Shown: positions 3,807 to 30,600 of the stretch, in pieces
Position numbering within the stretch: position 1 is the first letter of the stretch
Layout of the letters: every line of letters begins with the position of its first letter
Assembly (NCBI GenBank): GCA_017405525.1
Contig: JAFRAH010000010.1
Coordinates: 62,001 to 126,000, forward strand
From: Synergistaceae bacterium
Lineage (GTDB): Bacteria > Synergistota > Synergistia > Synergistales > Aminobacteriaceae
DNA: 64,000 nucleotides
Direction: 5' to 3'
Notes under the pieces: model-generated
Told to the model about the DNA's origin: nothing
Databases searched by the model: none
What the model saw: the letters and a program-made list of their open reading frames with translations, nothing else
Program-made: the position numbers and the translations under genes

Positions 3807-4871
3807 CTAGAACATCTCCGCAATACTCCTAGCGTCAGGAGGACAGCCCTTGACGTTCCTCGATGCCCCCGAACAGCAAGCCCCCACACCTAACGCACCG
3901 TCAGGAATATTCTTGCCCTTCCAGCCCTGGCCTATGTAGACATCCTGACCCCGTCCCTTCCTTTCGGCGTAGAGTGCCCTCACCAGTGCCGCATAGCAAG
4001 CTGAACATGCCGAGTCCTCGTGAACTTTCCTCGTGAGCTCTCCAACCCTCCCTGAAGGCTTCGGGTAACTCCCTGCATTCACCGGCTCGTTGAGGGTGAT
4101 TACGTCGTCGGGGGAAAACTTCATGCTTCCTGCCCCCCACATGTCGGCAATGGCGATATATGGCACCCTTTCGGTCTCAAGCCCCATCAGTCCCGCGCCG
4201 TAAGTGTCAATCATGACCGGGTCCGTTCCGAGAAACATCCTGTTAGTGTGTATTGGGTTTCCTCCCTCCTCAAAGCAGAGATCCCCGCAAATACTGTCGA
4301 CGATGACCAGTCCCGGCCTCAGTACAGCAGCAAGGGCGGCAATAGGCCGGGTTAATCCTATTGCGTGAAAGCGTCTCTTCTCGCGGTCAGGAAGGCAGCC
4401 TTTGAGGTTCTTGAGCGCACAGGTCATGACTGTCTGGCAATGTCCCTTCAGCACCGGGAGGTTGACGAGAAACCCGGCATCTAATGCACGGCAGCATATC
4501 TCCATCGGGCCAATGGGTGAGTCGATTTTTCGGGTCTTGTCGTGTTTCAGGTCATGGAACGGAACATCATACTTCCTGCAGATTTCGTCATAGCCTGCGC
4601 GCTTCATGGCCTTCATTGTCTCATCACCTACCCAGCTTCCCTCGATGATGCTGATGGATTTTGCCCCGTTGTCCCTGAAGTACTCTATGCATCCCGAAAG
4701 AACTCCGGCATGTGTTGTAGCTCCGTCTTCAGGCCGCCCGGCAATAACGAGGTTGGGCTTGAGTGCGATGCTTGCCCCGGAAGGTACAAGGCTTATTGCG
4801 TCAGAGGCTTCAAGCAGTCGCTTCGTCATCCCGTGAGAGTCGGTGCCGTATATGTTGTAGATCTTGCGCAT
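3807..4871 (-). CDS. DUF362 domain protein
   Basis: The body matches DUF362 proteins (ALKPNLV near the N-terminus, GAKSISIIEGS, ALKNLKGC in the middle). The family's function is not established, and some members carry iron-sulfur domains. No CxxCxxC ferredoxin domain is present, but the last 70 residues hold several cysteines (CSACYAAL, GACCSGA, KGCPPDA) that could bind a metal. AAGGAG lies 12 nt before the ATG. The gene follows the polymerase-like gene by 21 bp on the same strand. It converges on the NfeD-like gene across 29 bp with no clear terminator. Confidence 0.7.
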   Translation of the reverse strand: MRKIYNIYGTDSHGMTKRLLEASDAISLVPSGASIALKPNLVIAGRPEDGATTHAGVLSGCIEYFRDNGAKSISIIEGSWVGDETMKAMKRAGYDEICRKYDVPFHDLKHDKTRKIDSPIGPMEICCRALDAGFLVNLPVLKGHCQTVMTCALKNLKGCLPDREKRRFHAIGLTRPIAALAAVLRPGLVIVDSICGDLCFEEGGNPIHTNRMFLGTDPVMIDTYGAGLMGLETERVPYIAIADMWGAGSMKFSPDDVITLNEPVNAGSYPKPSGRVGELTRKVHEDSACSACYAALVRALYAERKGRGQDVYIGQGWKGKNIPDGALGVGACCSGASRNVKGCPPDARSIAEMF

Positions 4872-4892: not shown

Positions 4893-5945
4893 TTAAAGGT
4901 AGTCCCTGTATTTGTAGACGTAGATGAAAGTAATCGGGAAAAAGACCCAATACTCATTGCTTTGGCTCATGAATAACGGAATGAACATTAACATTGATGG
5001 TATTCCTGTCTTCATGTAACGCAAGTTCCTGACTATGCAGTACATGAAGAATATAGCGAACGGCCAGCCGAACAGAGCAGCCATGTAAAACCAGCCGTTT
5101 GAGCCGGTAACATCCCCGTAAATTCTTCCGTACTTCCTGAACTCCTGAGCACTTAAGCCGGTCAATGGAGATACTGCGCTCATGTTCAGCAATGCTATGT
5201 TGTCCCCAAGCCTTATGTACAACGAGCTTCTTTGCTGTAAATTCCTTGAGTCAAGTTTCTCCTGCACTACATCACTCCGCCATATCAGCAATGCGAGGAA
5301 GGCAGCAACGGCAAAAAGGATAACATACATTATTTTGTTTTTCTTCACTGACGCGTTGAACATGAATGATATTCCTGTTAGTGCCATCAGGCTTAGGTAT
5401 CCCATTGTAGACTGGCACACTATGATTGCGAGAATGACTATCCCGAATTTCTTCACGTAGTAGGCAATTTCGGAAAAGCTGAATTTCTTGAACTCATCAA
5501 AGAAAAGTCCAAGCACGAATATCATGATTATCTGGTATTCTCCCGGTTCCCAGTATATGGAGGCCATTCTTCCGCCCCAGTCCATGAATATATAGAATGT
5601 CGGCGCAGGATGTCCTCCAAAGCTACCTATGCCGAGGTTTACGTGGAGAGCCCATGCTACGAGGGTAGCGGCTGACAATATCGTTAGGGCCTTGAGGAGT
5701 TTTTCCCGGAACGTCCTGAATGATAGGGAGGATATAGCCATGTATGAGCTTGCGACGTTGAGCAATAAGACTGAATTAATCCCAACAGTTCCGGTTTGTG
5801 CTTCACCACCGATAACGTTGAAGATGAGACGTGATACGCACGCCCAAGAAAACAATACGACTGCGGACATTGCAGAGAAATCAAACTTGTTCTTGTATCT
5901 TTTCATGAACAACAGGAAAGACGTGGTAAAGAATATTACAGCCAT
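4893..5945 (-). CDS. O-antigen polymerase/ligase-like membrane protein, 5' end frameshifted
   Basis: A polytopic membrane protein with about 9-10 hydrophobic segments. The motif SIYWEPGEYQ resembles the FWEPG motif of Wzy/O-antigen-ligase-type proteins, which join or transfer polysaccharide repeat units at the inner membrane. The first available ATG (5945) has no SD. The frame stays open further upstream and encodes a plausible first membrane helix (ILEWLIAWEIILF), but no ATG, GTG or TTG is in frame there. Removing one copy of the adjacent 14-bp tandem repeat (6039-6066) joins ATG 6073 in frame and gives a 388-aa protein. The gene is visibly richer in A+T than its neighbours. It is either phase-off or a fresh loss-of-function allele. 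Family call moderate, frameshift reading good. Confidence 0.7.
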   Translation of the reverse strand: MAVIFFTTSFLLFMKRYKNKFDFSAMSAVVLFSWACVSRLIFNVIGGEAQTGTVGINSVLLLNVASSYMAISSLSFRTFREKLLKALTILSAATLVAWALHVNLGIGSFGGHPAPTFYIFMDWGGRMASIYWEPGEYQIIMIFVLGLFFDEFKKFSFSEIAYYVKKFGIVILAIIVCQSTMGYLSLMALTGISFMFNASVKKNKIMYVILFAVAAFLALLIWRSDVVQEKLDSRNLQQRSSLYIRLGDNIALLNMSAVSPLTGLSAQEFRKYGRIYGDVTGSNGWFYMAALFGWPFAIFFMYCIVRNLRYMKTGIPSMLMFIPLFMSQSNEYWVFFPITFIYVYKYRDYL

Positions 5946-6038
5946 TACTTTAGCGGGGATAAACCTTAGTCCGCTTGCATCGCTGCTCTGTCCTGAAAAA
6001 AGAATTATCTCCCATGCGATAAGCCATTCAAGTATGTC

Positions 6039-6066
6039 ATTGCTTTTGCCTGATTGCTTTTGCCTG
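6039..6066. repeat. 14-bp perfect tandem duplication in a gene start
   Basis: ATTGCTTTTGCCTG occurs twice head to tail, at 6039-6052 and 6053-6066. Because 14 is not a multiple of 3, the second copy shifts the frame between ATG 6073 and the body of the minus-strand polymerase-like gene. With one copy the whole reading frame 6073-4893 is intact (1167 bp). Confidence 0.9.
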
Positions 6067-6126
6067 ATGTCATTATTTTGTTCCCAGTTCCTGCATAAAT
6101 TTTTATCGGTATAGTGTTTTTGTTAT

Positions 6127-6132
6127 TATAAT
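6127..6132 (+). promoter_or_regulatory. -10 box of the hflK operon
   Basis: A perfect TATAAT lies 32 bp before the hflK ATG, in an A/T-rich divergent intergenic region. No good -35 hexamer is seen at 16-18 bp. AGGAGG (6152-6157) is the ribosome-binding site of hflK. Confidence 0.5.
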
Positions 6133-6163: not shown

Positions 6164-7063
6164 ATGAGACAGCAAAAATTCTTCATCCCCGCAATCATCA
6201 TCATAGCACTTGCCGTACTTCTCTCACTTGATGGCTTCTACACCGTCGGCGAACAGGAACAGGCAGTAATCACCATGTTCGGCAGTGTCATACGCACAGA
6301 CACCGCAGGACTGTACTTCAAGCTCCCGTTCATTCAGCGCGTCCACATCGTCGACATGACCACACACGGCACAGGAATAGGCTACGATACCGACCAGTCA
6401 TTCAGGAACGTTACTCGTGAGGACGAAAGCATCATGATCACTTCGGACTTCAACTTCGTGAACATTGACTTCTACCTTGAGTACAAAGTCTCAGACCCTA
6501 TAGCCTGGCTCTACAACTCAGACAACCCGGAGGCAATCCTGCGTAACATGTTGCTTGCCTGCATTCGTTCCGTTGTGTCTGATTACCCGGTCGACGAGGT
6601 CATAACCACCGGCAAAAATCAGATTCAGGTCTCAGTTCGTGAGAGGTTGACCGAGATGCTGGAGCAGAGCAATATCGGCCTTCAGTGCGTGAACCTGACT
6701 GTTCAGGACGCAGAGCCCCCAACCGAGAAGATCATTCAGGCGTTCAAGGAGGTAGAGACAGCCCGGCAGGCACGTGAAACTATGGTGAACAGCGCGAAAA
6801 AATACCAGTCCGAGCAATTGCCACTAGCTGAGGCAAAAGCAGACGAGATCATCCAGAAAGCTGAGGCAGTAAGGTCGGCACGAATAGCTGAAGCCACAGG
6901 TCAGGCAGTCCGTTTCAGGAACATGTACGAGGAATACAGGGCATACCCGCTCATCACAAGGCAGCGTTTATTCTACGAGGCAATGGAGCAGGTACTTCCT
7001 GGCGCAAAGGTCATCATCACTGACGGAACTACTAGCCGTTTGTTGCCGCTGGACAAATTTTAG
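6164..7063 (+). CDS. hflK: SPFH protease modulator HflK
   Basis: HflK is an inner-membrane SPFH/band-7 protein that with HflC forms a cage around FtsH and modulates its proteolysis. One N-terminal membrane helix (about 7-24) precedes the SPFH domain (VGEQEQAVITMFG, LYFKLPFIQRVHIVDM) and a C-terminal helical part rich in Glu, Lys and Ala (about 205-270). Length 299 aa. It is the first gene of a rightward run; hflC starts 17 bp after its stop. FtsH itself is encoded at 35789-37660. Confidence 0.9.
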   Translation: MRQQKFFIPAIIIIALAVLLSLDGFYTVGEQEQAVITMFGSVIRTDTAGLYFKLPFIQRVHIVDMTTHGTGIGYDTDQSFRNVTREDESIMITSDFNFVNIDFYLEYKVSDPIAWLYNSDNPEAILRNMLLACIRSVVSDYPVDEVITTGKNQIQVSVRERLTEMLEQSNIGLQCVNLTVQDAEPPTEKIIQAFKEVETARQARETMVNSAKKYQSEQLPLAEAKADEIIQKAEAVRSARIAEATGQAVRFRNMYEEYRAYPLITRQRLFYEAMEQVLPGAKVIITDGTTSRLLPLDKF

Positions 7064-27629: not shown

Positions 27630-30600
27630 TTATTCTGTTGCGGTTATGTGGAGTTCATCAGTCTCAAGTTCAATGCCTCCAGATTTTGCCCTGACAGACA
27701 CGCAGAAACCTCCATCAACCATTTCAGCCGGGAGCGTGAATTTCCCCCCATCCTCAGAAAACGTAATGCCTTCAGCGGGCTTGAAGTTGTAGATTACCTG
27801 AACGTCTGAAACTTCAGCCATTGAGCCATCAAGATAGAGCCACTTTCCGAGAATGAACGTGATAGCTTTTCCCTGTTGAACGTTGACGAGGTCAGAGTCG
27901 CGGCCACTGCCTGCCGAGAGAATATCACTGCTCAAGACTTCGAGGGTTGCGGGGATTATTACTCTTGTGTTAGCTGAGAGTTCAGGAATTTCGGTGAGGG
28001 CTTGGGAGTTTTTGGGCTGGACTACTTTCACCGTGAACTTCTTGCTTGATGCAGCACCGTTCTTGTCTTTCGCCTTAATGGTGAACTTGTAGCTTCCTGA
28101 TTTTGTGGGAGTGCCTGAGATTTTCCCGGTCGAGGCTTTGAGTTTCAGACCGTCCGGGAGCTTCCCACTGCTCACGCTCCAAGTGTAGGGAGATGTCCCG
28201 CCTGATACCTTGAGCGTCCACGAACACGAGGCTTTCCGGGTTATTGTTGTCGGGATTGAGCCTGTTAGTGTTGTCTGGGTTACCTTCACAGTGAAGGACT
28301 TAGTGGCCGCCGCACCGTTCTTGTCTTTTGCCTTGATGGTAAACGTGAAGATGCCCGCCTTCGTTGGAGTACCTGAAATTTTCCCTGTCGATGCATTGAG
28401 CTTTAAGCCGTCTGGGAGTTTCTCACTGCTCACGCTCCAAGTGTAGGGAGATGTTCCACCCGATGCCTTGAGCGTCCACGAACACGAGGCTTTCCGGGTT
28501 ATTGTTGCCGGGATTGAGCCAGTTAGTGTTGTCTGGGTTACCTTGACGGTGAATGACTTTGAGGATGCTGCACCGTTCTTATCTTTGGCCTTGATGGTGA
28601 ACGTGTAGGTGCCTGCTTTTGTGGGAGTACCTGAGATTTTCCCGGTCTTTGAGTTTAGGGACAAGCCCGCCGGTAATTTGCCGCCGCTTACGGTGAACGT
28701 GTAGGGAGATGTCCCGCCTGATACCTTGAGTGTCCATAAACAGGAGGCCTTCCGGGTTATTGTTGCCGGGATTGAGCCTGTTAGTGTTGTCTGGGTTACC
28801 TTCACCGTGAATGACTTAGTGGCCGCCGCACCGTTCTTGTCTTTGGCCTTGATGGTAAACGTGAAGTTGCCTGCCTTCGTGGGAGTACCTGAGATTTTCC
28901 CGGTTGATGAGTTTAGGGACAAGCCCGCCGGTAATTTACCACTACTCACAGTGAACGTGTAGGGAGATGCCCCACCCGATGCTTTGAGCGTCCACTTGCA
29001 CGAGGCTTTCCGGGTTATCGTTGCCGGGATTGTGCCAGTTAGTGTTGTCTGGGTTACCTTCACCGTAAATGACTTTGAGGCTGTCATGCCGTTAGCATCT
29101 TCCGCCGAAACAGTGAACTTGAACGTTCCAGCCCTTGACGCAGTCCCTGAGATTACCCCTGTAGCTGGGGCAATGTTCATTCCTTCAGGGAGCGTCCCAC
29201 TGGAAACCTTGTAGGTATATGGCTGAGTCCCTCCATCTGCCGTCAATGCCTCCCTGTATTTGCCCTTCCTCGTACAGCCAGAAAGTGAACCGTATAGCTT
29301 TATGACCGTTATATTGACGCTGAAGTTCCGTGTTACGGAGTTACCTGTGCTGTCTGAAGCCTTGATGCTGAAGTTGTAGTAGCCTTCCTTTGAGGGAGTG
29401 CCTGAGATTACGGCCTTGTTCCCCGAATAGCTGAAGCTGAGCCCCGAAGGTATATTCCCGGCTTTCTCCCATGAGTATGGCATTACACCGCCGGTTGCCT
29501 CAATGCTCCCGGAGTATAACTTCCCCGCAATGCCATCACTGAATGTGTCCCCGCTCAATGTGAACGGAAGAGTGCTTACAGTCAGGGTGAAAGTCTTTTC
29601 CGCACTGCCGAGTGAGTTGGTGGCTTTCACGGTAAATGTGAACGTTCCTGCTGAACACAAGCGGCCATGCAAACGTCCTGAGTCCCTCTCAAGCGTCAAG
29701 TCCGGGGGCAAAGTTCCTCCTGTCTTCTCCCACGTGATGGGAGTTCTGCCATTTCTCGCAAGGGTGAGGTCATAGTCATTGCCTGTTGTTCCTGCTGGAA
29801 GGTTGTTGCCGGTGGTAATTTCTGGCGCGTCCGGGTCTCGTATGAAGATGGTGAAGTCCTTTTCCGCCGAGCCTGAATCATTCTGAGCCTTGAGCCTGAA
29901 AGTATATGTTCCTGTTGAGTTGAGATGTCCCCACAAACGCCCGGAGTTCTCATCAAGCCTCAAGTCCGGGGGAAATGAGCCGCTTACCTTCTCCCAGTGA
30001 GTATTGCCGTTCCCTGTGCACCTGAACGTGAACTCGTAATCCGTTCCTTTCGTGCCGCCGGGTAGTGTGCTGTCGGAAGTAATCTCCAGCGCGTCCGGGT
30101 CTCGTATGAAGATGGTGAAGTCTTTTTCCGCCGAGCCTGAGTCATTCTGAGCCTTGAGCCTGAAGCTGTATGTACCTGTTGAGCTGAGATGTCCCCACAA
30201 ACGCCCGGAGTTCTCATCAAGCGTCAGGTCCGGGTGGAATGAGCCGCTCACCTTCTCCCAGTGAGTATTGCCGTTTCCCGTACACCTGAACGTGAACTCG
30301 TAATCCGTTCCTTTCGTGCCGCCGGGTAGTGTGCTGTCGGAAGTAATCTCTATCGTCGGATGGGGATCTTCAGGCTGTGGGCTGCCTCCATCGCTCACCG
30401 TAAGCGTAAATTCCTTTGTGCCAGTGCCGCTGAGATTCACGGCCTTGACGGTGAACCTGAAAGTCCCTGCCTCCTGGACATACCCGAAAAGCCGCCCGCT
30501 GTTGCCGTCGAGCTCAAGCCCTGAAGGATGAGTGCCGCCGTCAAAATACCAGTGAGCCGAGCCCTCGCCTGTGCATTCAAGCAGCTTGTCGAAGTAAGTT

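Follow-up and report, generated by a model that had tools for sequence, protein, structure and literature searches.

Does the 14-bp tandem duplication at the 5' end of a polysaccharide-type gene in this Synergistaceae bacterium form a phase switch, as an earlier note on the same DNA had proposed, or is it a mutation of another kind? Throughout, the window is the whole stretch of 64,000 nucleotides that was analysed, and coordinates without a locus prefix refer to it (Table 1). The reading that we favour, with a probability of about 55%, is that of a recent and reversible OFF duplication of the pneumococcal cap3A/tts type, which sits in a genome that appears to be switched by repeats elsewhere and is not itself a dedicated switch.

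The duplication and the frame it breaks

The unit ATTGCTTTTGCCTG occupies 6039-6052 and 6053-6066 (2.1 copies, 100% match) and has no other occurrence in 98% of the genome. Shuffled and Markov controls of the window never produced a perfect tandem of period 12 or more, which rules out a chance origin, and the duplication is as real and as perfect as had been reported. It lies at the 5' end of the frame, just inside ATG 6073, where a unit whose length is not divisible by three shifts the frame. That this ATG is out of frame owing to the second copy, and that a single copy would restore a protein of 388 aa, had both been claimed and both hold: translation from ATG 6073 reads 22 codons and stops, and the frame arithmetic for the one-copy form, (1181-14)/3, agrees with 388 aa plus a stop. 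Both the duplication and the broken frame are direct observations. The ribosome-binding site ahead of ATG 6073 is weak.

Frame 4893-6122 on the minus strand runs through 409 codons without a stop, and this openness up to 6122 leaves room for the gene to be ON, either through ATG 5945 or through a rare start (ATC, ATT or ATA) in the open upstream frame. We regard this as improbable, as ATG 5945 has no ribosome-binding site at the usual distance and the only orthologue, described below, starts well upstream and keeps the segment that such a start would lose; on the same grounds ATG 5945 is disfavoured as the natural start. The frame holds no ATG, GTG or TTG upstream of ATG 5945, which bears out the earlier statement that no usable in-frame start exists between that codon and the repeat. 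That the second copy is an assembly or consensus error, or belongs to a minor allele in a mixed population, appears very unlikely: the assembly is a draft in 43 contigs, but the locus is single, no second contig carries the 14-bp repeat, and ordinary reads are longer than a 30-bp repeat, which makes assembly errors of this kind uncommon. No one-copy junction was present in the viral contigs searched.

Table 1. Coordinates of the duplication, the Wzy-like gene and its neighbours in the window, and of arrays behind promoter-like elements elsewhere in the genome.
Feature	Position	Strand	Remark
Perfect 14-bp tandem duplication	6039..6068	.	Copies 6039-6052 and 6053-6066, then two more matching bases
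Conserved coding frame, Wzy/O-antigen-ligase-like membrane protein	4893..6038	-	Orthologue homology starts at codon 6038-6036
ATG, probable original start	6071..6073	-	Out of frame with the gene in the two-copy form
22-codon reading frame, ATG 6073 to stop 6005-6007	6005..6073	-	Product of the assembled allele if translation begins there
ATG, sole ATG/GTG/TTG in frame	5943..5945	-	Without a ribosome-binding site at the usual distance; use would lose the conserved first segment
TATAAT, possible -10 box in the Wzy-like gene's own promoter	6125..6130	-	By eye; not listed by the consensus scan
DUF362 gene	3807..4871	-	Downstream neighbour; also beside the orthologue
HflK-like (SPFH) gene	6164..7063	+	Divergent; neighbour of the inserted Wzy-like gene
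Penta-, hepta- and octamer arrays directly behind TTGACA-N16-18-TATAAT	L042:7402-7440; L148:8428-8487; L079:14395-14432; L149:9432-9462		
Further such arrays	L107:8437-8483; L105:16141-16184; L140:16926-16968, others		Own genome, outside the window

A probably accessory Wzy-like gene and its orthologue

As assembled, the open reading frame encodes 350 aa and an apparently multi-span membrane protein. The label 'polymerase' had to be softened: the match to PF04932 (Wzy_C) is weak and sub-threshold, at 10.5 bits in the window protein and 25.9 bits (E 9.7e-6) in the orthologue against a cut-off of 31.7, and the predicted structure has a pLDDT of 36, too low for the model to be of use. What stood is that this is a real and otherwise intact polysaccharide-type gene with a broken 5' end; judging from its sequence, the product is likely, though not proven, to be a polysaccharide polymerase or ligase.

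The gene stands alone between the HflK-like and DUF362 genes. These are separated by 62-64 bp in four sister genomes, which together with a GC content of 44%, against 51-55% in the neighbours, argues that the Wzy-like gene is probably an accessory insertion; no Wzy-like remnants were found at the DUF362 locus of the sister genomes. It is present in two of 188 Synergistota genomes (43 genomes of the genus being among those searched), the sole orthologue, likewise adjoining DUF362, being that of the goat-rumen MAG Synergistaceae RGIG3234 (G004, locus L003), and no further homologue was found in the 188 phylum genomes or in the genome contigs searched. The sporadic occurrence, the insertion between closely spaced genes, the low GC content and a repeat of only two copies without a cassette all favour the main rival reading, in which an accessory gene that is being lost has simply suffered a loss-of-function mutation and reversion is irrelevant. 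We nevertheless consider it doubtful, since the 1.1 kb of coding frame carry no further lesion and genes of the same functional class are under repeat control elsewhere in the genome.

The window protein and the orthologue are 39-42% identical over the length of the gene, and their alignment opens at the first codon after the repeat (DILEWLIAWEIILFSG in the window, NFLEWAAAWEIVIFSG in the orthologue). The orthologue starts 13 residues upstream of the aligned segment, behind GGAGG, a good ribosome-binding site; these 13 residues have no alignment with the window sequence, and L003 has no repeat there. Because the orthologue aligns across the segment above ATG 5945 and starts 13 residues earlier, that segment is real protein in the relative, and the conservation of what is lost is observed directly. 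The two-copy allele, to go by the alignment, separates this conserved first segment from its start, and the openness of the rest of the gene, with its identity to the orthologue, argues that the break is recent.

Tandem repeats with longer units were also seen. Genome G029 carries 6.7 copies of a 108-bp unit in the interval from HflK to DUF362 (L008:2520-3240), which give rise to decoy 21-aa ORFs; the unit corresponds to the DUF362 start region, with a promoter-like box, a ribosome-binding site and the first ~20 codons. Sister genomes carry a ~80-bp DUF362 start repeat (L022:1367-1513) and a 122/179-bp tandem repeat resembling the NfeD 3' end (L026:727-1245). The window also holds long tandem repeats at 28054-29075 (258 bp, four copies) and 29825-30350 (264 bp, two copies), with lengths that are multiples of three, which are probably the repeat domains of a large protein.

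Simple repeats across the genome

The repeat survey covered 2.12 Mb of the 2.17-Mb genome, taken in stretches, with expectations drawn from order-4 Markov sequence. Against an expectation of zero, 20 heptamer arrays of at least three copies and 10 pentamer arrays were observed; poly-G/C tracts of at least 11 numbered 15 (~1 expected), while 8- and 9-mers were depleted (9 seen against 45-70 expected), as would follow from maintenance of long tracts but not of short ones. Among the ORFs at repeats, 31 were scanned and 28 had Pfam matches, almost all to glycan-assembly families (GT1/4, GT2, GT8, GT10, GT61, Branch, LicD, acyltransferases, MBOAT, pyruvyl transferase, UDP-sugar dehydrogenase and others). 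Two GT8 paralogues illustrate the arrangement, with states assigned, as for all arrays, from sequence alone in draft assemblies: at L042:7402-7440, (CGCCCAA)5.6 lies between an ATG with a strong ribosome-binding site and the GT8 frame, which would be OFF, and at L148:8428-8487, with 8.6 copies, the frame reads through and would be ON.

Poly-G/C tracts of 11-14 occur in or at the start of glycan-type genes at L063:19308, L071:10207, L095:12840, L133:1602, L151:3597, L116:9847, L087:3058 and L125:11287, where the two gene halves are often in different frames, and a 145-aa ORF is immediately preceded by a 20-bp unit repeated 5.5 times (L116:2043-2152). Two arrays were excluded as in-frame coincidences, one a heptamer within a pth-like gene and the other a pentamer within a map-like gene. 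The genome appears to hold ~45 candidate switches, mostly at sugar-coat genes, as a mix of strong cases (long arrays at recognisable genes) and weaker ones. Five arrays lie at contig ends (L048:1, L076:1, L147:9931, L151:7071 and L058:4); with contigs stopping within simple repeats, longer arrays probably interrupt the assembly, and the true repertoire would be larger than the count.

The simple-repeat contingency loci of Haemophilus influenzae, which include penta-, hepta- and octanucleotides and the heptamers of the hmw promoters, resemble the present repeats in that short arrays lie at surface genes, where they shift the frame or stand near promoters, and in that LicD-type genes are among the targets (PMC2651432). 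They are mainly tetranucleotides, whereas in this genome the prevailing repeats are heptamers, pentamers and poly-G/C, and a conserved TTGACA/TATAAT element adjoins most arrays. The Wzy-like site, unlike the Haemophilus loci, is not a short-repeat array. Heptamer arrays are likewise scattered through single genomes in Xanthomonas and Nostoc, but there they share one common G-rich unit and have no tie to surface genes, whereas here the units are locus-specific and mostly at surface-glycan genes (PMC4692102).

A promoter-like cassette in the genus

At about 30 arrays of at least two copies, the repeats start no more than two bases from the last base of a TTGACA-N16-18-TATAAT element, whose TATAAT may be a close variant; AAGGA mostly precedes the TTGACA, and a TGnTATAAT box often lies some 30 nt further upstream. 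A reversed-sequence control gave seven matches, six of them with 6- or 9-bp units; arrays of at least 2.6 copies at these elements have units of 4, 5, 7 or 8 bp and never of 6 or 9. The genes that carry cassette arrays at their 5' ends encode glycosyltransferases, LicD, acyltransferases and similar proteins, and otherwise unrelated genes can share a leader peptide: MKNGIIIDQTRPDQT is common to an acyltransferase and a GT61, and MT[DE][EK]VGTM to a GT8 and a GT2. Similar genes in other species have different repeat units (L176 and L042; L170 and L149). The strict cassette pattern was found in 28 of 43 genomes of the genus (27 of 42 sisters, and the genome studied here) and in 4 of 145 outside it. 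Nineteen of the 20 sister elements that were read carry a 5- or 7-mer array, unit lengths that are not divisible by three, and on inspection by eye several of the genes that follow look like glycosyltransferases.

This pattern reads as translational phase variation with interchangeable 5' cassettes at surface-glycan genes, and a genus-wide phase-variation cassette, leaving any step of RNA polymerase aside, seems to us quite probable. It is a bolder and rather unlikely proposition that species of this genus carry a genus-specific contingency cassette in which a sigma-70-like promoter directly adjoins the frame-shifting repeat at the 5' end of dozens of surface-glycan genes, and that RNA polymerase at this promoter itself both seeds the repeat and makes it unstable; to the cassette repertoire the Wzy-like duplication would then be a sporadic addition.

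A probable reversible OFF allele

With a frame-shifting unit at a 5' coding position in a glycan-type gene of a switch-rich organism, the site at 6039-6068 has several attributes of a contingency locus, as the proposal of a dedicated, frequent phase switch there would have it. The arrays of simple-sequence-repeat contingency loci, however, have at least three units of 1-9 bp, against 2.1 copies of 14 bp at this site; switches elsewhere in the genome have units of 1, 4, 5, 7 or 8 bp, mostly in at least three copies; and the TTGACA/TATAAT element that neighbours most of them is missing, the full genus cassette (AAGGA-TTGACA-N16-18-TATAAT-array) having no match anywhere in the window and hence none before the repeat. 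Similar duplications are also not rare: the genome has 15 of 11-20 bp, nearly all of two copies, and those other than the 14-bp one keep the frame, lie within an intact ORF or fall mostly in intergenic DNA. Given the two copies, the lack of a cassette and these similar duplications, we do not class the 14-bp repeat as a repeat switch, and a dedicated switch is unlikely; no one-copy allele was seen in the material searched. What survives of the earlier proposal of slipped-strand phase variation is its wider part, as the genome-wide repeats indicate that the organism appears to phase-vary its surface-glycan genes by slippage. One further duplication, a perfect 11-bp repeat in a GT11 (fucosyltransferase-like) gene at L040:15198-15221, was considered as a second broken glycan gene and rejected, its two copies being the in-frame state of an intact gene.

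The closest likeness is to the pneumococcal capsule. In the part of the literature summarised in PMC4243769 (Waite et al. 2001, 2003), OFF variants arise by spontaneous tandem duplication in cap3A, cap8E and tts, which breaks the frame of a polysaccharide gene, needs no prior repeat and can be undone when one copy is lost; cultures there showed both alleles as well as reversion, whereas here there is one assembled allele in an unrelated gene and phylum. A frame-breaking tandem duplication inside a polysaccharide-synthesis gene is what the window contains, with a weakly supported polysaccharide role. This capsule-type duplication, together with OFF glycan genes that look commonplace in this genome, makes a reversible OFF allele the best reading.

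According to this reading, a recent 14-bp duplication at the very beginning of the coding sequence would have parted the start codon of an accessory Wzy/O-antigen-ligase-like gene from its frame, leaving an allele that is OFF as assembled and would yield a 22-aa product or, at best, a protein begun at ATG 5945 that lacks the first conserved segment. If slippage removed one copy, the frame would be whole again, so that the state is reversible in principle. The observed repertoire of repeats suggests that surface-glycan genes in this genome are widely switched, and an OFF state of such a gene is therefore probably tolerated or favoured. We infer that the Wzy-like product is absent, that reversion happens and that it alters the cell surface.

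Taken alone, the duplication adds an instance to a known route by which polysaccharide genes are silenced. The surrounding repertoire weighs more, with ~45 candidate switches in a phylum, Synergistota, for which our literature searches found no account of repeat-based phase variation. Surface variation of uncultured gut bacteria within their hosts becomes testable from existing reads, and the repertoire suggests that phages, protozoa or hosts may exert strong pressure.
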